33,283 nt of DNA from an uncultured Opitutales bacterium (GTDB taxonomy: Bacteria > Verrucomicrobiota > Verrucomicrobiia > Opitutales > Seribacteraceae). Positions 6,689-17,334 of this stretch are shown piece after piece. The stretch spans positions 1 to 33,283 of the forward strand of contig CAJQKB010000156.1 of assembly GCA_905478775.1 (NCBI GenBank). The letters run 5' to 3'. Every line of letters starts with the position of its first letter. The first letter of the stretch is position 1. The notes under the pieces were generated by a model. It had not been told where the DNA came from. It worked only from the letters and a program-made list of their open reading frames with translations, and made no database searches. Made by a program: the position numbers and the translations under genes.

Positions 6689-9600
6689 CTAAAATAAACT
6701 ATCCAGGATTGAAACTTCTTGGTTTTTATCAAACGGGCTCCATATTTCATCTTTATACCTAAAAAATCTTGGTGAAGGTAAGGATTCGAAGTCGAAATAA
6801 ATCCAATTCTCATCTGTAGCGGACCAACTTTGCTGCTTGGTAAATGAATCTGAATTGAGCCATAACCATTTTAATTGTGGAGACCATAACCAAATGGAAC
6901 CATCGGATTGTGTTTCAGGGAATATCCAGCCTAAATTGTAGTGATAGCACCAACCATTATCCGATTGGTAAAAGTATCCGAGCCAATCATTAGCATACCA
7001 ACTGGGAGAAATGATTGTTACTTGGAGTGACTCGATCAAATTAGTAGGCGATGTGATAAATGAAGCGGTAAAAGTTAGATTCTCAGTAACTGTAATGGTT
7101 AAGGATGTACTATTTGAATCTTCTATTCCACTCCCGCTCCATTTTTCGAAATAATTTCCTGACTGTGCAGAGGCAGTGAGTGTAATGCTTTCTCCGAAAC
7201 TATAATTTCCTTCTCCAGTTACATTTCCTTCTCCACTGGTTACAATAGTCACGGAATGGGTATTGGGGGTGAAGGAAGCTTTAATGACTGTATCGGAATT
7301 AACTGTGATAGTAGTCTCGGTCAAGGAACGGTCTGTGAAAGTTCCATTTCCCTCCCAACCAGCAAAGCTATATCCAATGTCGGGAGTGGCCACAATGGAT
7401 ACAGTCGAACCATAGAGTTGAGAGGTATTCACATCGTTAATCGTTCCTCCAATACCTGCAGTTAGGTCAAGAGAATATGATATTTTCTCAAAGGTGGCCG
7501 TGATATTTAAATCCTGATTTATTGTCAGCGGGAGGCTAGTATTATATGAATTTCCCATTCCGGTTCCGCTCCATTTTATAAAATAATAACCCATTGCCGG
7601 AGTAGCGTTTAGGGATATCGTATCTCCATGACTATACATTCCATTACCTTGAGCGACTCCCTGTCCCTGTACGGAAACTGAAACTTCGTAAATACTTCTT
7701 GTAAAGGATGCAGTAATATTTGCGTCATTGAGCAAGGTAATGTTGGTCGAATTTGAAAACTGATTTTCAAATATCCCATTACCATTCCATTTCTCAAATG
7801 TATAGCCGGTATTTGGAGTGGCAACTATTGGGATAATACTACCATAATTGTAAGTGGAATTGAGATCGTTTACATCACCTCCTATTCCCGCGCTTACTGA
7901 GATAGAGGGGCGGGTAAGAGCAAAATTTGCAGTAAGATTCAAATCTTCAGTGATGGTAAGTGTTGTGCTGGTTGAATTTAAATCTGCTACTGTTCCGCCT
8001 GTCCAATTTACGAAAGTATAACCCGAGCTCGGTGTGGCTGAAATTGTAACAGTTTGATTTACAGAATAGATGTTTGTTCCAGTCAATTCCGAGGCAGAAA
8101 ATTCAGGGTTTGCATTTAATTGAAGTGCAAAATTACCATCTGGAATTTCAGCGAAATTTGCCTTTACCGATTGGTTTCCAGAAATTGTCAGGGTAGTGGT
8201 GGATGAATTAAGTTCTTCGATCCCATTTCCTTCCCAACCCGAAAAATAATAGCCGGGATCTGGTGTTGCATTGAGAGAAATCAAGCTGTTGTAAGGGAGA
8301 GAACTTCCCGGAGGGGAAGAGGAGACGACACCACCTGTAGTTGCTGTAATATTCAAGTCATAGTTCAATGGGGAAAAGTGAGCTTGTATTGATTGATTCC
8401 TATCCACTCGTATGGAAGTGGTGGAGGCAGTGGTGTCGGTGATGCCTGCGCCTGATTGTGTCCAATTAGAAAAAGCATAGCCAGTATTTGCAATCGCAAT
8501 AAGGCTGACGTTCGAGTCATAAGAATAGGTACCATTCACATCGTTGATACTGCCTCCCTCACCAGCCAGTGCCGATAGTGAAAATTGGAGTGGGGAAAAG
8601 GTTGCAGTAACTGATTGAGCCTGAGTCATTTGAATCGTAGTCGTCATTGACGCTGCATCAAAAACTGAAGCCCCGGACCAACCGGAAAATAAATATCCAA
8701 GGCTCGGAGTTGCTGTTATTATACTGTCTTCTCCGTGAGAAATATTTCCGGAACCTGTTGCTGTTCCACCTATGGTTGCATTGACGGTTAATGGGTAGGA
8801 ATTTAATCCAAAATTTGCGGACAGATTTACATTGGAATTAATCTGAAAAGTAAGCGGATTCTCACTTCCCCCAATTGATCCGCTCCAATAGTCAAAGTAA
8901 TAACCGTTTCCCGTATTTGAAGTGACCGACAGTGTGACTGTATCTCCGTGACTATAGGTTCCTGTTCCGTTCACTGAACCGGCAATGCTCGGTTCAAGAG
9001 CAACATTTACCAAGTACGAGTTTAGGGTGAAGTTAGCAGTGACAGTGCGAGCCAGGGTCATATTGACCGTGGTTGTGGCAGATGAACTGTCAGTAATTCC
9101 GGTTCCAGACCAGCCGGTAAAAGAATAGCCAGTGCTTGGCGTTGCAGTTATCGTTTTCAAAGTACCATGAGGAATATTTCCGGATCCGGTAGCCGTTCCA
9201 CCTGTTCCCGCGTTTACTACTAAGTTATGGGCAAGTAACCCAAAATTTGCGGTTAAAGTTAAATCAGACGTAACTTGTAGAACTAATGGATTACTCGAAC
9301 CCGTTTGCCCATTGCTCCAATATGCAAAATTATAACCGTCTCCGGTATTTGAAGTAACATTTAGGGTTGCAGTTGCTCCCGGGTTGTAGATACCTGTTCC
9401 ACTTACTTCGCCTGCTCCATTTGGTTCGATTATCACACTAATGGTAAAGCTTGGCCAGGCACCCGAACGTTTATTATTTCTTTGAAATTGAGGCCAAGAG
9501 TTATCCGCTAATCCTGCCCCCACATTTACCGCGTATACTTTCTTGTCATAGCATCCAAAAAATAAATTCCCACCTGAGTCCAGGGCAAGGGATGAATCCA

Positions 9601-10654
9601 CCAATCCACCAATGGAGAGAGGAGAGGATGAGTTATTGGTATCCCATGATTTGGTTCCGTCTGAATTAAAAGCAAAAAGATGGTTTTCCCCAAATCCGGT
9701 ATATCCGATGACATAAACCTTACCGTTGGAATCGACGACTGGGGAACTGTAGAATACATCTCCCGAGAAAACTTCCCAATTAGAAATACCTGTGACTTGA
9801 TCCACTGCACGAAGATATCCGTCGCGGGAAACAAAAAAGACTTCATTGTTTTGACCGAGAACAGGAGATGCATCCACCCGGTCATTGGTGCCAACCTTCC
9901 AGTTTAGTACGGCTGCACTGACTCCGTCCGCAATCGAATAACAATATCCATTGCCACTTCCGAAATAAAGGTTACCTGAAAGATCTATAGCGGGGGATGA
10001 GAGAATTGATTTGTTTGTGTCCGCAACATCATCCACCTCGTATGTCCATTTCGTACTTCCATCCTGATTAAGGGCGTGAAAGGTACCATTTTCATCCCCG
10101 AAATAGATGGTTCCGTCCTGTCCGATCGCGGCTGAGGAGGTGATTGCATTTCCTATATAAGTTTCCCATGCCAAAGAACCGTTTGATTCTAAAGCGTAGA
10201 AAAATTCATCTTTGGATCCAAAATAAATTCTTCCCTCTACCCCTATAGCTGGTGAGGCAATAATACTACTACTCGTATTAAAGTCCCATAATTTAGAACC
10301 GTCCATTGGATTGATTGCATAGAGTTGATTATCCCAGGATCCAAAATAAATGGTTCCGTCTGACCCGATTGCAGGGGTTGAATCAACCCAGTCCCCGGTC
10401 GTGAAAGTCCACTTGGCCGAACCATCCGAATTAATCGCGTGGAGTTTATTATCGTTCGATCCAATGTATACTGTCCCATCCGTGGCAATGGTTGGAGATG
10501 AGAAAATAGTCCCCCCCGTCGAGTAAGGAGTTGTCCAATGCGCCGTTGGGTTTGCAACTCCCACAGACGCAAGCACCGTAGCTAAGAGCATGGCAATGAA
10601 AAACCTAGCTTGGCAGTGACAGGGAAAGATGAGAGGCATGCCTTTAGTTAGCAT
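6689..10654 (-). CDS. Secreted PQQ-type propeller / InlB B-repeat protein with aromatic C-terminal domain
   Basis: About 1321 residues from the ATG at 10654. An in-frame ATG at 10639 is also possible; a start at 10759 would run 80 bp into the kinase gene. Residues 1-34 form a signal peptide (hydrophobic FFIAMLLATVLASVGVA). Residues about 40-395 hold eight blades of the form SSPxIxxDGTxYxGSxDxxLxAxxxDGxxxW, an eight-bladed PQQ/quinoprotein-like propeller. Residues about 402-1200 are 11 tandem 70-73-residue InlB B-type repeats (GYxFxxWSG...xxxxANF). A final block of about 90 residues is very rich in Trp/Tyr/Phe (GWCYHYNLGWIF; GSIWLWSPQLKWLWL). There are no transmembrane helices and few cysteines. 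It is probably a cell-surface or adhesive protein; the ligand is unknown. It lies 25 bp downstream of the histidine kinase and may be co-transcribed. Confidence 0.88.
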   Translation of the reverse strand: MLTKGMPLIFPCHCQARFFIAMLLATVLASVGVANPTAHWTTPYSTGGTIFSSPTIATDGTVYIGSNDNKLHAINSDGSAKWTFTTGDWVDSTPAIGSDGTIYFGSWDNQLYAINPMDGSKLWDFNTSSSIIASPAIGVEGRIYFGSKDEFFYALESNGSLAWETYIGNAITSSAAIGQDGTIYFGDENGTFHALNQDGSTKWTYEVDDVADTNKSILSSPAIDLSGNLYFGSGNGYCYSIADGVSAAVLNWKVGTNDRVDASPVLGQNNEVFFVSRDGYLRAVDQVTGISNWEVFSGDVFYSSPVVDSNGKVYVIGYTGFGENHLFAFNSDGTKSWDTNNSSSPLSIGGLVDSSLALDSGGNLFFGCYDKKVYAVNVGAGLADNSWPQFQRNNKRSGAWPSFTISVIIEPNGAGEVSGTGIYNPGATATLNVTSNTGDGYNFAYWSNGQTGSSNPLVLQVTSDLTLTANFGLLAHNLVVNAGTGGTATGSGNIPHGTLKTITATPSTGYSFTGWSGTGITDSSSATTTVNMTLARTVTANFTLNSYLVNVALEPSIAGSVNGTGTYSHGDTVTLSVTSNTGNGYYFDYWSGSIGGSENPLTFQINSNVNLSANFGLNSYPLTVNATIGGTATGSGNISHGEDSIITATPSLGYLFSGWSGASVFDAASMTTTIQMTQAQSVTATFSPLQFSLSALAGEGGSINDVNGTYSYDSNVSLIAIANTGYAFSNWTQSGAGITDTTASTTSIRVDRNQSIQAHFSPLNYDLNITATTGGVVSSSPPGSSLPYNSLISLNATPDPGYYFSGWEGNGIEELNSSTTTLTISGNQSVKANFAEIPDGNFALQLNANPEFSASELTGTNIYSVNQTVTISATPSSGYTFVNWTGGTVADLNSTSTTLTITEDLNLTANFALTRPSISVSAGIGGDVNDLNSTYNYGSIIPIVATPNTGYTFEKWNGNGIFENQFSNSTNITLLNDANITASFTRSIYEVSVSVQGQGVAQGNGMYSHGDTISLNATPAMGYYFIKWSGTGMGNSYNTSLPLTINQDLNITATFEKISYSLDLTAGIGGTINDVNTSQLYGSTVSIVATPDIGYSFAGWEGNGTFTDRSLTETTITVNSDTVIKASFTPNTHSVTIVTSGEGNVTGEGNYSFGESITLTASAQSGNYFEKWSGSGIEDSNSTSLTITVTENLTFTASFITSPTNLIESLQVTIISPSWYANDWLGYFYQSDNGWCYHYNLGWIFPETQSDGSIWLWSPQLKWLWLNSDSFTKQQSWSATDENWIYFDFESLPSPRFFRYKDEIWSPFDKNQEVSILDSLF
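7050..9450 (-). repeat. Eleven tandem InlB B-type protein repeats (coding)
   Basis: Eleven units of about 70-73 codons recur between roughly 9450 and 7050, each ending in [TS]AxF and carrying a G-Y-x-F-x-x-W-[ST] core. They are diverged at DNA level, so the array is old. Units 1 and 3 share NTGxGYxFxYWS and the ANFGL ending. Units 2 and 4 share GGTATGSGNI and a xHG turn. This indicates an ancestral two-unit duplication. Units 5, 8 and 10 share a GGxxNDxN opening. Confidence 0.85.
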
Positions 10655-10679
10655 AATTTGGTTAAATAATACAAATTTA

Positions 10680-12023
10680 TTAAAGGTCTTCTTTGGGTTG
10701 AATTTCCACACAGAAAGTGGATCCTTTACTGGTACTTGATTTAAGAAAGATTCCCCCATTCATTTGTTCTGCTAATTGCTTACAAATTGCAAGTCCGAGC
10801 CCGCTTCCATGTTCCTTGTTGCTTCGGGTGGGAGAGAATAAATCATCCTTGATGTGCTCGGGGACGCCCGGTCCATTATCGGCCACGAGAAACGAGATTC
10901 TGCCTTCCGTTTTTTCAAGCTGTAGAAAGACTTTTGTATTACTATCTGATTCCAAAGCATTCTGGACCAGGTTTTGTAGAATAGGGAGAAGGAGATTGGC
11001 CTGTAAATTGTTAATATTAACCTTGTCCCATTGGCTTGAGATTATGCTTACATAAGTACCCTTACCTTTCAGGTTAAACTTTTTTGCAGTCATACAAAGA
11101 AGCTCATGGGCTTGGAAAGAATAGCTTTCTTCATCCAGTTCATATTCTTTGAGGCAATTCATGGTCTCATGAACCAGGTTTTCAATCTGTTTTGTGGTTG
11201 ATTGCAATGCCTGGTCGGCAATTTTTGAGTCAGCTTTATCTCCGCCCAATTCCAAGTTCTTTAGTCCCATGAGTGGACTTTTAATTGCATGCATCAAGTG
11301 GGCGGTGATTGCGCCCAGTCCGGCAGTTTTACAAGCCATGACAAGCCTTTGATTGGTATGCTTTAGATCCTCGGTTTTGGCGAGCAATTGAGTTTCAGCT
11401 TTCTGTAGTCGTTTAAAAAATAGGTTGAATACAAAAAGTAAAAGAATGGATCCAAATAGAAAAACGATTAGGCCTTGTTTCATTACCTGTGACTTGATTG
11501 CATTCCGTTCGGGAATGATATCCGTCTTTGGATCCACGATCAGTTCGAGGAATCCAATTTCAGCCTGTTCTCCAATGGGGAAAACAATGGATAATGCATC
11601 CCTTTGGAAATTGGTTATTTTTCGTGCCTCTCTACCTTTTTCCAAAGAAAAAAACCTCTTTTTTGTTTTCTCTATATTGGTTGATAAGTCGAGGAGTCTA
11701 CCCTCATTATCATAAGCATACACACTGCGGACATCAGGAATTTCCAGAGATCTCATTGCCAGAATTCTAAGCCCCTCGATGTCGTCGTAAACCAATTGGT
11801 CCAGACCAAGATTAATGTAATCTAGGTTTTCTTCGAGGATTTCCTTTTCTATATCCTCAAAGAGGTTGTTAATTGCAGGTAAAAGGACATTCGCAGTTCG
11901 TTCGATTGCTAGATTGTAGAATTGATTGAGGGCAAAATATTGGAGGACAAAAGTAAGTAATCCAAAAAGAAATAAGATTGCTCCAATGATAAGCCGTCCC
12001 TCTTTGGACTTTTTTGCACACAT
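10680..12023 (-). CDS. Membrane sensor histidine kinase
   Basis: Two-component sensor of about 447 residues from the ATG at 12023; a TTG at 12086 would overlap the upstream gene. TM1 is at about 10-32 (LIIGAILFLFGLLTFVLQYF). An extracytoplasmic sensor of about 150 residues follows, then TM2 near 185-205 (LIVFLFGSILLLFVFNLFF) and a short coiled linker. The H-box is HLMHAIKSPL with His245 as phospho-acceptor. The residue after His is Ala rather than the usual Glu/Asp, and Ser replaces the usual Asn/Thr. The ATPase domain is complete: NLVQNALES (N box), VADNGPGVP (G1), GSGLGLAICKQL (G2), SKGSTFCV. Its likely partner is the sigma-54 regulator at 14612-16030. It lies 32 bp after the barrel gene and 25 bp before the propeller gene. 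Confidence 0.92.
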   Translation of the reverse strand: MCAKKSKEGRLIIGAILFLFGLLTFVLQYFALNQFYNLAIERTANVLLPAINNLFEDIEKEILEENLDYINLGLDQLVYDDIEGLRILAMRSLEIPDVRSVYAYDNEGRLLDLSTNIEKTKKRFFSLEKGREARKITNFQRDALSIVFPIGEQAEIGFLELIVDPKTDIIPERNAIKSQVMKQGLIVFLFGSILLLFVFNLFFKRLQKAETQLLAKTEDLKHTNQRLVMACKTAGLGAITAHLMHAIKSPLMGLKNLELGGDKADSKIADQALQSTTKQIENLVHETMNCLKEYELDEESYSFQAHELLCMTAKKFNLKGKGTYVSIISSQWDKVNINNLQANLLLPILQNLVQNALESDSNTKVFLQLEKTEGRISFLVADNGPGVPEHIKDDLFSPTRSNKEHGSGLGLAICKQLAEQMNGGIFLKSSTSKGSTFCVEIQPKEDL

Positions 12024-12055
12024 CAATGATTGGTTGTTTTCAGTATTCAATTTAC

Positions 12056-13450
12056 CTAATTTTCCCACTTTACACCCAATGCCCAAAAGTTGGTATAATA
12101 TTCATAATCTCTTGCATTCGATTGATCCTCCTCATAACGCCACTTGAAATAAGTTTCCCAGTCCGATGATATTTTACGAGTCACCAGTAAATCGACTCCG
12201 TAACTCTGTCTTTCAAATTGAGCGCCAGGTGAAACGGTTCTAATGTCGTATAAATAATTAGCCCAACCTAATTCCGTGACTGATTTCCATTTCTTGCCTT
12301 TAATTTCGTGAGATAGCTTTGTGCTTATTTTACTGTAATCATAATAGGCACCAGCATTATCAGATAATTGGCTGTATTTGAATTCTGCACCCAGTGTGTC
12401 TAGCCATGGGTTGTTCGACAGCCTTTTCCATGATCCAGAAACGCCTGTTTTTTCGGTTGTGAGATTTCCCCCTGATAAATTTGTGCCCTCTCCATCCTTT
12501 CTGCTCCGTTCAACATAACGAATGGTATGATGGGAAATCTTTGCATGTAATGTGGTTTGCTCGCTTTGCTTCGCGGTTAGGTCTATCTGAATTTTCTGAT
12601 CCGAATTATTTTCCGAAGGATTGTCATACCGATCGATTCCGAAAGCAGTCTCGGCAGATAATTTTATTTTGGGAGTAAGTTGGTAGCCGAAATGAGGAAT
12701 TATTTCCGATTTATTTGATTGAACCTGCATTGAGAACGGGAGGCCCAGGTCAGAAAAATCAAAAGCCTGATCGTAGTAAGTGTGCCGGAGCTTTGCACCC
12801 CATGAACTGGGCGAGCTCGTAGGTCTGTAGGAATGCTCGGCCTGAAGGAGAAGAATACCGGTTAGCTTGTGGTCGTCCACTTCCAGGAATCTTTTTCCTT
12901 CCCCGTAAAAATAAAAATAACTTAAGTAATCAGGGTTCGCCTGTCTGAGTAAAAAACTCTCTGTTTCAAATTCCATGTATGTGCTTGATTCCCGAATATA
13001 GGGTCCATACATGGGGTTATCTGAAACCCCGAAACCAACTGATGCAGAAACGGACGGCAACCAGCTTTTGGATTCAGCGAGTTCAATAAAATCATTTTCC
13101 TCCCATTCAGTATCTGGGAGTTCAATTTCATTGATCGAGCCAAAGAGAAGAAATTCAAGTTCCTCATCTGTCATTATACTCTCCCTTTTAGTCGGAGCAT
13201 TTTGCGTGGGAGGCGAGGGCGATGTGGGGGGCTCTGCTGAAACAACTTGTATAGGAGTTTCGGTAATTTTGTTGGGAACTGGACTTGTATCAAAACCACC
13301 AAGATTGATGATCTCCAGGTTTCCCAAGTTTGAAACAAAGGAAGAAGGTTCTTTTATGGTTTGAGCAAATGCATGCTCGGAAAGTACTCCCGAAGTATGT
13401 AAAAGAAATACACTTAGCAAAGTAAGAAACTTATAATTTACCGTGATCAA
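12056..13450 (-). CDS. Putative outer-membrane beta-barrel protein
   Basis: 464 residues, not assigned to a named family. A signal peptide is visible (FLTLLSVFLLHTSGVLSEHAFAQ). Then come a Pro/Thr/Ser-rich linker near residues 75-95, an acidic patch (TDEELEFLL...DTEWEENDF), and a long C-terminal part with alternating polar/aromatic strands (for example WGAKLRHTYYD, YFKWRYEED, YTNFWALGVKW), typical of a porin-like barrel of perhaps 14-16 strands. The chain ends WEN, not with the classical terminal Phe. The start is TTG at 13450 with no alternative ATG in frame before the signal peptide. A TTGGCA-17-TAATAT promoter ends just upstream. Because it precedes the kinase, it may belong to the same sensing system. 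Confidence 0.7.
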   Translation of the reverse strand: MITVNYKFLTLLSVFLLHTSGVLSEHAFAQTIKEPSSFVSNLGNLEIINLGGFDTSPVPNKITETPIQVVSAEPPTSPSPPTQNAPTKRESIMTDEELEFLLFGSINEIELPDTEWEENDFIELAESKSWLPSVSASVGFGVSDNPMYGPYIRESSTYMEFETESFLLRQANPDYLSYFYFYGEGKRFLEVDDHKLTGILLLQAEHSYRPTSSPSSWGAKLRHTYYDQAFDFSDLGLPFSMQVQSNKSEIIPHFGYQLTPKIKLSAETAFGIDRYDNPSENNSDQKIQIDLTAKQSEQTTLHAKISHHTIRYVERSRKDGEGTNLSGGNLTTEKTGVSGSWKRLSNNPWLDTLGAEFKYSQLSDNAGAYYDYSKISTKLSHEIKGKKWKSVTELGWANYLYDIRTVSPGAQFERQSYGVDLLVTRKISSDWETYFKWRYEEDQSNARDYEYYTNFWALGVKWEN

Positions 13451-13485: not shown

Positions 13486-13520
13486 AGAAAAAGGAAGGAG
13501 CGAAAAAATCGCTCCTTCCT
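13480..13520 (-). terminator. Intrinsic terminator of the Lys/Glu-rich protein gene
   Basis: Perfect 11-bp stem: AGGAAGGAGCG (13492-13502) pairs with CGCTCCTTCCT (13510-13520) around a 7-base loop. Read on the minus strand it is followed by TTTTTCTTT (13491-13483). It lies 32 bp after the stop at 13553, so the gene upstream is most likely a single-gene transcript. It is the clearest intrinsic terminator in the window. Confidence 0.9.
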
Positions 13521-13552: not shown

Positions 13553-14410
13553 TTACAGATCGGAAGTTCGGGTTGCTTCGGTTTCGACGAGTTCTCTAAT
13601 TTCTTCCTTAATTTCTTTGGATTGTGTTTTGATCTCCTCGTGCTTTGCTTTGTTGGTCTCTTTAAATTCAGCAATTAATTCCTCTTTTTCCTCTTTTGTG
13701 GCTTCCTTAAGTTGCTCGTGTAATTCTTTACGGGCGGAGTGTAGTTCTTTGTGTTTTTCTTTAAGGGCTTCCACTTTTACTTTTAACTCAGCGTTGAGTT
13801 CGGGTCTTTCGGGTTTTTCAGGACGTGCCGATTCGATACTTTCGCGAATCGCTTCATGTGCTTGTTTGATCGCATCGAATTGATCTTTGTTATCGGCTTT
13901 AAATGCTTCAATTGCCTCTCTCATTTCCTCCTTGGAGGCACTTTGACCGAGTTCGGCAAGTTTGCCTTTCATTGATTCGTGAAGTTTCTTCTGATCGGCT
14001 TTAATTTCGGCAAGGCTATCTTTTACTGCATCACTTAACTCCGGTTTTACTGGACGTTTTGGACGTTTAAATTCGCCCTTCTTCTCCATTTCCCCGCGCA
14101 AAGCACCTAGTTTCTTCTTTGCCTCTTCCTGAGAAAGCTTACCTTCTTTAACGGACTGCTGGATTTTATCAGCAAACTCCTTGGGGGAGCGTTTTTCATC
14201 ATCAGATAAAACTTCAGGTTTTTCGATGTTTGCGACTGCTGCTTCCATTTTTTCTTTGGCTTCTTCTTTGGTTATTTTACCGGCATCTAAAGCTTGCTTA
14301 ATTTCTTCAGCCACTTCTTTTGGTGGGAGAGGTCGAAGTGGTTTGGGTTGAGCAAAAACAAAACTTGCTCCGAGTCCGGCAATAAGTAGATAGGCGATTG
14401 ATTGTTTCAT
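13553..14410 (-). CDS. Secreted Lys/Glu-rich helical protein, likely output of the sigma-54 regulator
   Basis: 285 residues, no recognised family. A signal peptide is clear (KQSIAYLLIAGLGASFVFAQ). The N-terminal third has two copies of a short helix-turn motif, GKITKEEAKEKM and GKLSQEEAKKKL, each preceded by a Pro-rich stretch and an EE/DK-IKQ helix. The rest is almost entirely charged helix (Glu, Lys, Ala) with heptad-like spacing, broken only by short Pro segments (RPKRPVKPEL; RPEKPERPEL). It has no cysteine and no transmembrane segment after the signal, suggesting an extended helical periplasmic protein. It is preceded by a sigma-54-like promoter with paired palindromes and followed by a strong terminator. 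By context it may be an envelope chaperone, but sequence homology to ZraP, CpxP or Spy is not visible. Confidence 0.85.
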   Translation of the reverse strand: MKQSIAYLLIAGLGASFVFAQPKPLRPLPPKEVAEEIKQALDAGKITKEEAKEKMEAAVANIEKPEVLSDDEKRSPKEFADKIQQSVKEGKLSQEEAKKKLGALRGEMEKKGEFKRPKRPVKPELSDAVKDSLAEIKADQKKLHESMKGKLAELGQSASKEEMREAIEAFKADNKDQFDAIKQAHEAIRESIESARPEKPERPELNAELKVKVEALKEKHKELHSARKELHEQLKEATKEEKEELIAEFKETNKAKHEEIKTQSKEIKEEIRELVETEATRTSDL

Positions 14411-14457
14411 GATTTATATGGTTTTTGTATATTGATGTTTAAATATTGGAATCATTT

Positions 14458-14475
14458 TAACATTTTTAGTGCCAA
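14458..14475 (-). promoter_or_regulatory. Sigma-54-like (-24/-12) promoter
   Basis: On the minus strand TTGGCACTAAAAATGTT: the -24 element TGGCAC (14474-14469) is perfect. The -12 element is ATGTT in place of TTGCA, keeping G at -13 at the correct 10-base spacing from the GG. Transcription would start at about 14448, giving a leader of about 38 bases before the ATG at 14410. The encoded regulator just upstream is of the sigma-54 activator class, which supports the call. A short dyad AACCT-GGC-AGGTT (14474-14486) abuts the -24 box. Confidence 0.65.
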
Positions 14476-14558
14476 CCTGGCAGGTTTGTTTAAATTATTG
14501 ATTGGTAGATGCTTGTGACTAAATTGATTGAGTTTTGGATTTGTCAATGAAGTATTAC

Positions 14559-14574
14559 TGGGAATTATTTCCCA
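14559..14574. promoter_or_regulatory. Palindromic operator/enhancer site 1
   Basis: Perfect inverted repeat TGGGAA-TTAT-TTCCCA, centre 14566.5, about 118 bp upstream of the predicted sigma-54 start site. It shares arm pattern and the identical TTAT centre with the second site 33 bp away. No T-tract follows on either strand, so it is not a terminator. It is probably a binding site for the adjacent response regulator dimer. Confidence 0.65.
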
Positions 14575-14590
14575 ATGGCATGGCCATTTG

Positions 14591-14608
14591 TTGGGGATTA
14601 TTCCCCAA
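14591..14608. promoter_or_regulatory. Palindromic operator/enhancer site 2
   Basis: Perfect inverted repeat TTGGGGA-TTAT-TCCCCAA, centre 14599.5, about 151 bp upstream of the predicted start site and only 4 bases after the regulator's stop codon. Its core differs from site 1 by one symmetrical base pair in each arm. The 33-bp centre spacing is near three helical turns, so both sites would face the same side of DNA. Confidence 0.65.
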
Positions 14609-14611
14609 GGC

Positions 14612-16030
14612 CTATTTACTTTTCTTTTGTAAACGGTAGCGAATGTAATCCCTAGGCACGCCGAGGAATCTGGCCGCTTCAGAAATGTTTCCATTTGCTT
14701 GGGATATTGCTCGTTCGATAAGTCGAATCATCTCCTTCTCCAGATCGAACCCATCCTCTGGAAAGACGAAAGAGGGATTGAGCCAATCATTTTCGTCAAG
14801 CAACGTGTTGTTCTTTAACCCGCTTTGTAGATCGTTGGAAAGTTCGAGATCTTGCCCTTTTTCGGCCATGACCAACGCCCTCTCCAGGTCATGAATCAAT
14901 TCTCTCGTGTTACCTGTCCACTCGTTGTGAAGCATGTAATTTTCACTGGATTTAGATATCGTTGGTGTAGGCAACCTGTATTTTTTGCTTAGAGCGGAAA
15001 GGAAATGTTTAGCCAGGGGAAGAATGTCAGTACCCCTGGTCTTAAGTTCGGGAATATTGATCCGTAGTAGATCCAACCGATGAAATAAGTCCTCTCTGAA
15101 TTCTCGACTCATAATCATCTGCCGTAGGTCTTGGTTGGATGCGGCAATAATTCTTATATTCACTTTTATCTCTTTGGTTCCACCGACTCTACGAATGACC
15201 CCGTTTTCAATCGCCAGCAAAACCTTGGCTTGTGCCGCGAGGGAAAGGCTTGCGATCTCGTCCAAAAAGAGGGTGCCTTGGTCGGCCGCTTCAAAAAGAC
15301 CGATACGGGCATTTTTGGCATCGGTAAATGCTCCTTTTTCATGCCCGAAGAGTTCAGATTCAATCAGGTTCTCCGGAATTGCGGAGCAATTAACTTCGAC
15401 AAAAGAGTTTTCAGACCTGGGACCATGAGCATGAATCCAGCGTGCGTAAGTGGATTTTCCGGAACCGGTTGGACCATCGATGAGTAGGGGAGGGAGGTTT
15501 GCATCGAGCCTTCGGTCTGCATCGAGTATTTTTTTCAGTTTTTCCAAGTCCTGCACAAACGCACCTTCAAAAAACAGATCATTGGTTTTCTTTTTTTCCT
15601 GCTCCCGGTTGTGCTGACTGAGGCGAATGTTCTTTCTCCGGTTGTCTGCTTGGGCAAAGACATAGGGCAGTTCATCGAGGTCAAAAGGCTTACTCAGGTA
15701 ATCAGAGGCACCCAATTGAATTGCCTCCACAGCGGAGCGGATCCCGCCTTCACCAGTCATAAGAACCGTCGAAGTATTTTGTGGTACAATTCCCTCTCTG
15801 AGTAGTTCGAGACTGTCGCCATCGGGTAGGTTCAGGTCAAAGAGAGCCGCATCAAAGCTAAGCTCGGGAAGCGCTCTTCTCGCTTCTTCAAGACTTTGGC
15901 AATGGGTCACATCCGCACCACTTTTTTCCAAAAAAGAAGAAATTTGTTTGGCGAGAAGCAAATTATCCTCCAACAGTAGAACTTCTTTGCCTCTAAAAAA
16001 TGTGGATGTATCGTTTGAGAATTTCATCAT
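14612..16030 (-). CDS. Sigma-54-dependent response regulator (NtrC class)
   Basis: About 472 residues from the ATG at 16030 (ATG at 16027 also possible; the frame extends to a TTG at 16084 that adds nothing family-like). The receiver domain (about 15-130) has LLEDN, the phospho-acceptor Asp in LFDLNLP, LMTGEGG and the LSKPF lysine. The AAA+ domain has Walker A DGPTGSGKST, the sigma-54 contact loop as GAFTDA (usual form GAFTGA), Walker B GTLFLDEI, sensor NIRIIAASN and the REDLFHRL region. The C-terminal Fis-type helix-turn-helix is AISQANGNISEAARFLGVPRDYIRYRL. It likely activates the sigma-54-like promoter immediately downstream of itself and is the probable partner of the kinase at 10680-12023. 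Confidence 0.95.
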   Translation of the reverse strand: MMKFSNDTSTFFRGKEVLLLEDNLLLAKQISSFLEKSGADVTHCQSLEEARRALPELSFDAALFDLNLPDGDSLELLREGIVPQNTSTVLMTGEGGIRSAVEAIQLGASDYLSKPFDLDELPYVFAQADNRRKNIRLSQHNREQEKKKTNDLFFEGAFVQDLEKLKKILDADRRLDANLPPLLIDGPTGSGKSTYARWIHAHGPRSENSFVEVNCSAIPENLIESELFGHEKGAFTDAKNARIGLFEAADQGTLFLDEIASLSLAAQAKVLLAIENGVIRRVGGTKEIKVNIRIIAASNQDLRQMIMSREFREDLFHRLDLLRINIPELKTRGTDILPLAKHFLSALSKKYRLPTPTISKSSENYMLHNEWTGNTRELIHDLERALVMAEKGQDLELSNDLQSGLKNNTLLDENDWLNPSFVFPEDGFDLEKEMIRLIERAISQANGNISEAARFLGVPRDYIRYRLQKKSK

Positions 16031-16107
16031 TAAGTAGAATTTAAAAATGAGTCCTCGGTAAAAATAAATAACTTTGCAAACCAATTTTCATCGATCATTG
16101 TAAGTTT

Positions 16108-17334
16108 ATGCCGATAAGGTCTTTACTATGTATGTTTTTTTGGGGGGCGTTTTGTTTTCTTTATGGAGAAACTTCTCTTCAATTACAGCCGCCTGACTGG
16201 GCAAGGCTTGATGCATTTCAGGGAACATTATCGAAGGGTAAATTTAAACAGACCTTACACCAAGTTTACTGCCCCCGCGTAAGCTGGTATCAAGATTGGA
16301 TCAAATTGAATGAAAAAGAGGTTTTGATTCGAAAAAAAAGGGGCCAGGATAGTTGGTATGCACTTTCCTTCTCTGATGAAAATCAAACTATTTCAAAGAA
16401 TTCTGACTTACTTTCCGCCGATAAGAAAAATACCTTAAATGGAGTCCGTATTGCTTTAGACCCTGGGCACATTGGTGGGCAATATTCAGAAATGGAAGGA
16501 AGACATTTTGCACTGAATGGAAGCTTTCCAGTCAAGGAAGGAGACCTTGCATTATCTGTGGCAGTTAGGCTTAAGGAAAAACTGAGTGACCTGGGGGCAA
16601 CAGTAAAATTAATTAGGGAGAAAAATGAACCTGTTACCGTACTTCGACCAAATGATTTTGCCGATGAGGCTGAGATTTGGGTAAGGCAAAGGGAATTACT
16701 TTTGAAAAAAATGTTCAATGCAGAGGAGAGAGCTAAATTGGTGAGGAAACGTAGGGAAGTTCTCTTTTATCGAATCTCAGAGATTCATGCCCGTGCAAAA
16801 TTAGTAAACGAAGTCATCCGACCAGACTTGGTAATTTGTTTACATCTAAATGCCGCACCTTGGCCCGATCCTGAACAGTTTGAATTAGTAAAAAGGAATG
16901 ACTTTCATGTACTTGTAAATGGATGTTTTATGGGGGGCGAATTATCGGATGACAACCAAAGATTTGAAATGGTTTTTCGTTTAGTTAATCGTTGGAATGA
17001 AGCAGAAAAAGAAATTGCTGAGCATTTATCTCATGCGTTTATCCACAAGACAAATCTATCAATATTTAATTATAAAGGGCCTAATGCATTAAAGGTGGGA
17101 GATGTGCCTGGGGTATGGGCACGAAATCTTCTTGCGAACCGAAGTTATCATTGTCCAGTTGTTTTTTTGGAGCCATATGTGGCTAATTCCAGTGATGCTT
17201 ATGAGCGCATAATGTTAGGGAATTACAAGGGGAAGAAAAAAATGAACGGAGAATGGAAAGAAAGCTTGGTAGAGGAATATGCAGACAGCGTACTGGTAGG
17301 AATTAAGAATAGTTTACTTCCTGACCGAAAATAG
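16108..17334 (+). CDS. N-acetylmuramoyl-L-alanine amidase (Amidase_3 type)
   Basis: Zinc hydrolase that cleaves the amide between N-acetylmuramic acid and the peptide stem of peptidoglycan. 408 residues with a signal peptide (SLLCMFFWGAFCFLYGE). The catalytic domain begins near residue 112 with IALDPGHIGG (zinc His), then EGDLALSVAVRLKEKL (zinc Glu), LVICLHLNA (second zinc His) and VVFLEPYVANS (catalytic Glu). Between these there is a long insertion, residues about 180-250, rich in Lys/Arg/Glu helix (ERAKLVRKRREVL), longer than in compact AmiC domains. About 90 residues precede the domain and resemble no known module. The ATG lacks a Shine-Dalgarno sequence. It is divergent from the sigma-54 regulator gene. 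Confidence 0.88.
   Translation: MPIRSLLCMFFWGAFCFLYGETSLQLQPPDWARLDAFQGTLSKGKFKQTLHQVYCPRVSWYQDWIKLNEKEVLIRKKRGQDSWYALSFSDENQTISKNSDLLSADKKNTLNGVRIALDPGHIGGQYSEMEGRHFALNGSFPVKEGDLALSVAVRLKEKLSDLGATVKLIREKNEPVTVLRPNDFADEAEIWVRQRELLLKKMFNAEERAKLVRKRREVLFYRISEIHARAKLVNEVIRPDLVICLHLNAAPWPDPEQFELVKRNDFHVLVNGCFMGGELSDDNQRFEMVFRLVNRWNEAEKEIAEHLSHAFIHKTNLSIFNYKGPNALKVGDVPGVWARNLLANRSYHCPVVFLEPYVANSSDAYERIMLGNYKGKKKMNGEWKESLVEEYADSVLVGIKNSLLPDRK

Follow-up and report, generated by a model that had tools for sequence, protein, structure and literature searches.

Paired palindromic sites and a sigma-54-like promoter predicted to link an NtrC-class regulator to a secreted Lys/Glu-rich protein in Opitutales

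NtrC-class regulators, once phosphorylated, occupy tandem upstream sites, loop to the sigma-54 polymerase and remodel it (reviewed in PMC7408454). At E. coli glnA, the tandem activator sites of NtrC lie ~90-140 bp upstream of the sigma-54 start (PMC7408454). The ZraSR system of Escherichia coli has very few targets, namely zraP, zraSR, and mgtA (PMC7657598). For the PEP-CTERM pair PrsK-PrsR, genome comparison revealed a conserved site and a sigma-54 motif before secreted-protein genes (PMC1569441). At the Vibrio qrr enhancers of LuxO, the distance between site and promoter differs from one relative to another by about one helical turn (PMC4740811).

Here, we analysed a window of 33,283 nucleotides (the whole stretch of DNA studied) from a 2.78-Mb genome whose close relatives, where named, belong to uncultured Opitutales (Verrucomicrobiota). 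On our best reading of the comparison, one of its loci would work like ZraSR-ZraP, yet lies outside that family. Both systems combine a sigma-54-dependent NtrC-class regulator and a kinase with a target gene for a secreted protein. However, the window regulator reaches 227 bits against the ZraR NCBIfam cut-off of 760, the kinase 55 bits against the ZraS equivalog cut-off of 479, and the Lys/Glu-rich (K/E) protein predicted as the target has no match to the ZraP/CpxP/Spy-like families (Metal_resist, LTXXQ), Metal_resist being found only below threshold in 3 distant relatives. The window locus also has additional barrel and propeller genes. As at glnA, tandem sites lie upstream of a putative sigma-54 start, but the operator has another sequence, the regulator belongs to another family (295 bits against the NtrC equivalog cut-off of 559), and the target is not the same. 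An NtrC-class regulator and a site with a sigma-54 motif upstream of secreted-protein genes are shared with PrsK-PrsR, whereas the scores fall below the cut-offs (288 bits against 503 for PrsR, 70 against 300 for PrsK) and the many targets of that system contrast with apparently one in the window. The Vibrio qrr/LuxO system likewise shows a site-promoter distance varying by about one helical turn, but its targets are small RNAs instead of a protein gene and the regulators differ.

The regulator gene (14612-16084, minus strand) encodes a receiver (PF00072), an AAA+ domain (PF00158, Sigma54_activat), and a Fis-type HTH (PF02954, HTH_8), all above cut-off. An earlier note on this DNA had placed a sigma-54 activator gene next to the gap discussed below; the domain matches bear this out, and the genome has rpoN. 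The phospho-Asp is invariant, as is the GAFTDA loop that replaces GAFTGA in 14 orthologues; GAFTDA is listed among the natural variants expected to keep activity (PMC4641369). The TTG-started N-terminal 19 residues (16027-16084) are absent in relatives, and translation probably begins at the ATG near 16027. A divergent N-acetylmuramoyl-L-alanine amidase gene (16108-17334) adjoins the regulator in most relatives. The histidine kinase gene (10680-12086, minus strand) is presumed to encode the partner of the regulator from gene order only. A match to rpoN was found in 49 of 57 relatives, including the window genome. Eight genomes gave none, of which three are 90% complete or more, including G016 and G030, in which the enhancer pair is present.

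The predicted target gene (13553-14410, minus strand; ATG at 14410) encodes a secreted, Lys/Glu-rich, all-helical protein, modelled as two hairpins (pLDDT 79, pTM 0.37). The K/E protein hits nothing in Pfam at cut-off and resembles no solved structure in the searches; a known fold was rejected, the best Foldseek E value for this low-pTM model being 1.2. The K/E proteins of the genus end in a nearly invariant hydrophilic tail, VETEATRTSDL (window 13553-13590), perhaps a tag for binding or sorting. Because an intrinsic terminator-like hairpin with a T tail (13492-13520, minus strand) sits after the gene, it is probably transcribed mainly alone. The conserved remainder of the locus, on the same strand, comprises a predicted outer-membrane beta-barrel (12056-13450; 16 strands, pTM 0.68) and, at its end, a 1356-aa protein with a beta-propeller (PQQ/BamB-like) and ~11 InlB B-repeats (6689-10759). 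This gene content suggests, as a guess, an envelope role.

The gap between the regulator and K/E genes contains two 18-bp palindromes with centres 33 bp apart. On the plus strand they read CTGGGAATTATTTCCCAA (14558-14575) and TTGGGGATTATTCCCCAA (14591-14608). On the minus strand, that of the genes, the distal operator, putative enhancer site 1, is TTGGGGAATAATCCCCAA and the proximal operator, putative enhancer site 2, is TTGGGAAATAATTCCCAG; both are kept at a fixed distance in relatives. The earlier note had described two perfect palindromes sharing a TTAT centre. The arms are indeed perfect and the spacing is right, but TTAT, which is not self-complementary, is no spacer: the palindromes recur as the continuous 18-bp consensus TTGGGRAATATTYCCCAA in 26 gaps, so that TTAT belongs to the palindrome itself as its variable centre, within which TA is near-invariant (51/52 sites). 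The window contains one pair of matching inverted repeats lying close together, compared with none in 20 shuffles. Relatives do not keep two other palindromes, AATGGCATGGCCATT, which lies between the sites, and TGCCAACCTGGCA, which overlies the -24 element; these were taken as chance. An Rfam search gave no match.

A TGGCAC -24 element (14469-14474, minus strand) and a -12 element reading ATGT instead of TTGC (14460-14463, minus strand) follow, with the -12 TG at 14462-14461 in register and a predicted +1 near 14448. The earlier note had claimed this -24 element with an in-register G at -13 and had doubted the promoter for its poor -12 match. The coordinates hold, and the -13 G is near-invariant in the family, whose promoters take the form TTGGCAY-N6-TG at a near-constant distance from the sites. 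The -24 GG and -12 T are present in 26/26 orthologous gaps; across 35 family promoters (second K/E copies included), the GG is near-invariant and the TG occurs in 35/35, whereas C at -12 occurs in only 12 and is present in the promoters of other families. The departure from consensus is thus found throughout the clade, which supports reading the weak -12 element as a clade-wide trait and not as the sign of a non-promoter.

From ~25 genomes of the same family, 26 orthologous regulator-K/E gaps were extracted and measured. These gaps keep the two palindromes as well as the -24/-12 element, with near-fixed geometry, whereas the columns in between are not conserved: mean information is 0.14 bit from -85 to -36, against 1.86 for TGGCAC. 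The spacing between sites is 31-33 bp in 24/26 gaps, the exceptions being G019 and G053, each with one site weak or lost. The proximal site lies 90.5-95.5 bp from the -24 element in 30/35 promoters (G053, whose second site is poorly placed, is counted here) and in 3 the distance is shorter by about one helical turn, at 81.5-82.5 bp. G023 was mis-anchored by the automatic scan and fits the geometry when read at TGGCGC, leaving G019 as the last exception. The tandem sites occupy the NtrC-class position, ~100-150 bp ahead of a -24/-12 promoter, and the centres at about -118 (proximal) and -151 (distal) proposed earlier agree with the geometry of the family promoters.

The pair was then traced across genomes. 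The regulator and K/E genes are adjacent in most genomes of the family with both. In searches of 57 genomes, in which reversed-pattern controls were almost empty, strong pairs stand before K/E genes, so that the genome-wide search suggested in the earlier note finds the pair largely specific to them. It precedes duplicated K/E genes in five genomes (G001, G007, G010, G030, G035), and in G031 and G028 it stands before a K/E gene on another contig than the regulator. Across the genomes compared, the pair travels with the K/E gene and not with the regulator. Four genomes of the window genus (G004, G009, G014, G022) have neither a regulator orthologue nor a K/E gene. For G027 and G033, the idea that the regulator was lost and the sites decayed was rejected: in both, the contig breaks off within the K/E gene next to which the regulator would lie. 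In G010, a fragment of the regulator C-terminus (L076, 10014-10193) lies upstream of the sites of the second K/E copy, a remnant of the tandem duplication that copied the regulator end together with the enhancer and the K/E gene. In G021 (L101 / L169; C140:41046), a pair and a promoter arranged as elsewhere lie upstream of a run of Ns, within which falls the start of a gene for a Lys/Glu-rich protein with an EF-hand; this gene may be a second target. In the window genome itself, a pair pattern allowing 2 mismatches found one pair at 33-bp spacing, that of the window, and none at 32 or 43 bp, the three spacings covered; single or weaker sites could still exist. None of 16 other loci with a single site has a matching promoter, and the regulator apparently has one promoter target.

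Beyond the family, a 286-genome sample of the class contains regulator orthologues ~50% identical in 32 other genomes. With a matrix trained almost only on the window family (one site from G053), 8/29 gaps after regulator orthologues score at least 13, compared with 0/1090 control stretches; more than half of the orthologues are followed by no recognisable site. Those gaps in which a second site was found have it at a distance of 30, 33 or 43 bp; in L188 it falls within the 3' end of the regulator gene. The promoter is usually canonical (TGGCAY..TGC), and the gene after it encodes a small secreted protein, in which a conserved A-T-x-E motif is set within a helical-hairpin pattern, often followed by a barrel-like protein. 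In L066 and L070, where longer stretches were read, kinase and propeller genes are also present. The class-level positions show a trend toward helical phasing: R is 0.67, and 0/5000 uniform draws were as high, but with lineages, which are not independent, collapsed, p is 0.07.

Sites, promoter, geometry, and linkage to the target gene are thereby shown at the level of comparative sequence. We consider it probable, at roughly 0.87, that the palindromes are tandem enhancers through which the upstream regulator drives the K/E gene from a sigma-54 promoter. We infer that the kinase would phosphorylate the regulator, which would then bind both palindromes on one face of the DNA, oligomerise, and loop over ~90 bp. 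There it would remodel the sigma-54 RNA polymerase waiting at TGGCAC-N6-TG and switch on the K/E gene, mainly as a single-gene transcript, perhaps in an envelope-related role. The anatomy of the window fits the NtrC-class mechanism in each testable respect except the C at -12.

Another regulator, activator or repressor, might bind the sites in place of the neighbouring protein. Binding by that protein is so far a prediction, and a third conserved element suggests that an additional protein may act at the promoter. We nevertheless regard this alternative as improbable: the linkage between regulator and sites holds class-wide, a pair with sigma-54 geometry is typical of NtrC-class enhancers, and the own-genome searches at three spacings found no other pair. 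Still less credible is an action of the inverted repeats in RNA, as terminator or stability hairpins of the regulator transcript. The palindromes do follow the regulator stop codon directly and can fold as RNA (z -3.05). But there is no T tract after them and the terminator search lists no terminator there, the variable mirrored positions form 16 Watson-Crick pairs against 20.5 expected under independence, and the would-be loop, the palindrome centre, is among the most conserved parts; moreover, the pair is kept where no regulator gene lies upstream (G031, second K/E copies). A chance origin of the palindromes and the -24-like hexamer, for which only the non-consensus -12 element speaks, is refuted by conservation, fixed spacing, and class-level recurrence and has a negligible probability.

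The third element has the family consensus CTTAaG and, in the window, the variant TTTAAA (14489-14494, minus strand). In 20/35 family promoters, its CTTA begins at a distance of exactly 20 bp upstream from the -24 T, and in 23 within 1 bp of that position, whereas random placement (2000 draws) gave 2 on average and never more than 6. An IHF site was rejected as its identity (2/35 match). The element was not seen at the same place in the promoters of other families, and the family that bears it is the one with no conserved C at -12. A broader and rather doubtful proposal is a class-wide envelope-sensing two-component system, in which kinase, barrel, and propeller feed a one-promoter regulator and CTTAaG (~-46) is read by a second factor or by RNA polymerase, compensating for a -12 element with no C.

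Targeted searches of open-access full text, and the closest papers among it, gave no earlier description, and the system, spread across a class of Verrucomicrobia, appears to be undescribed, while the NtrC-class sigma-54 switch type itself is well known. Sigma-54 control has been little studied in this phylum; here, a regulator family that had not been characterised gains a likely operator and a likely target. The locus also marks the secreted helical K/E protein as worth functional study. It offers, moreover, a natural enhancer series, in which one regulator with apparently one target is represented by dozens of diverged promoters with distance shifts of about one helical turn.
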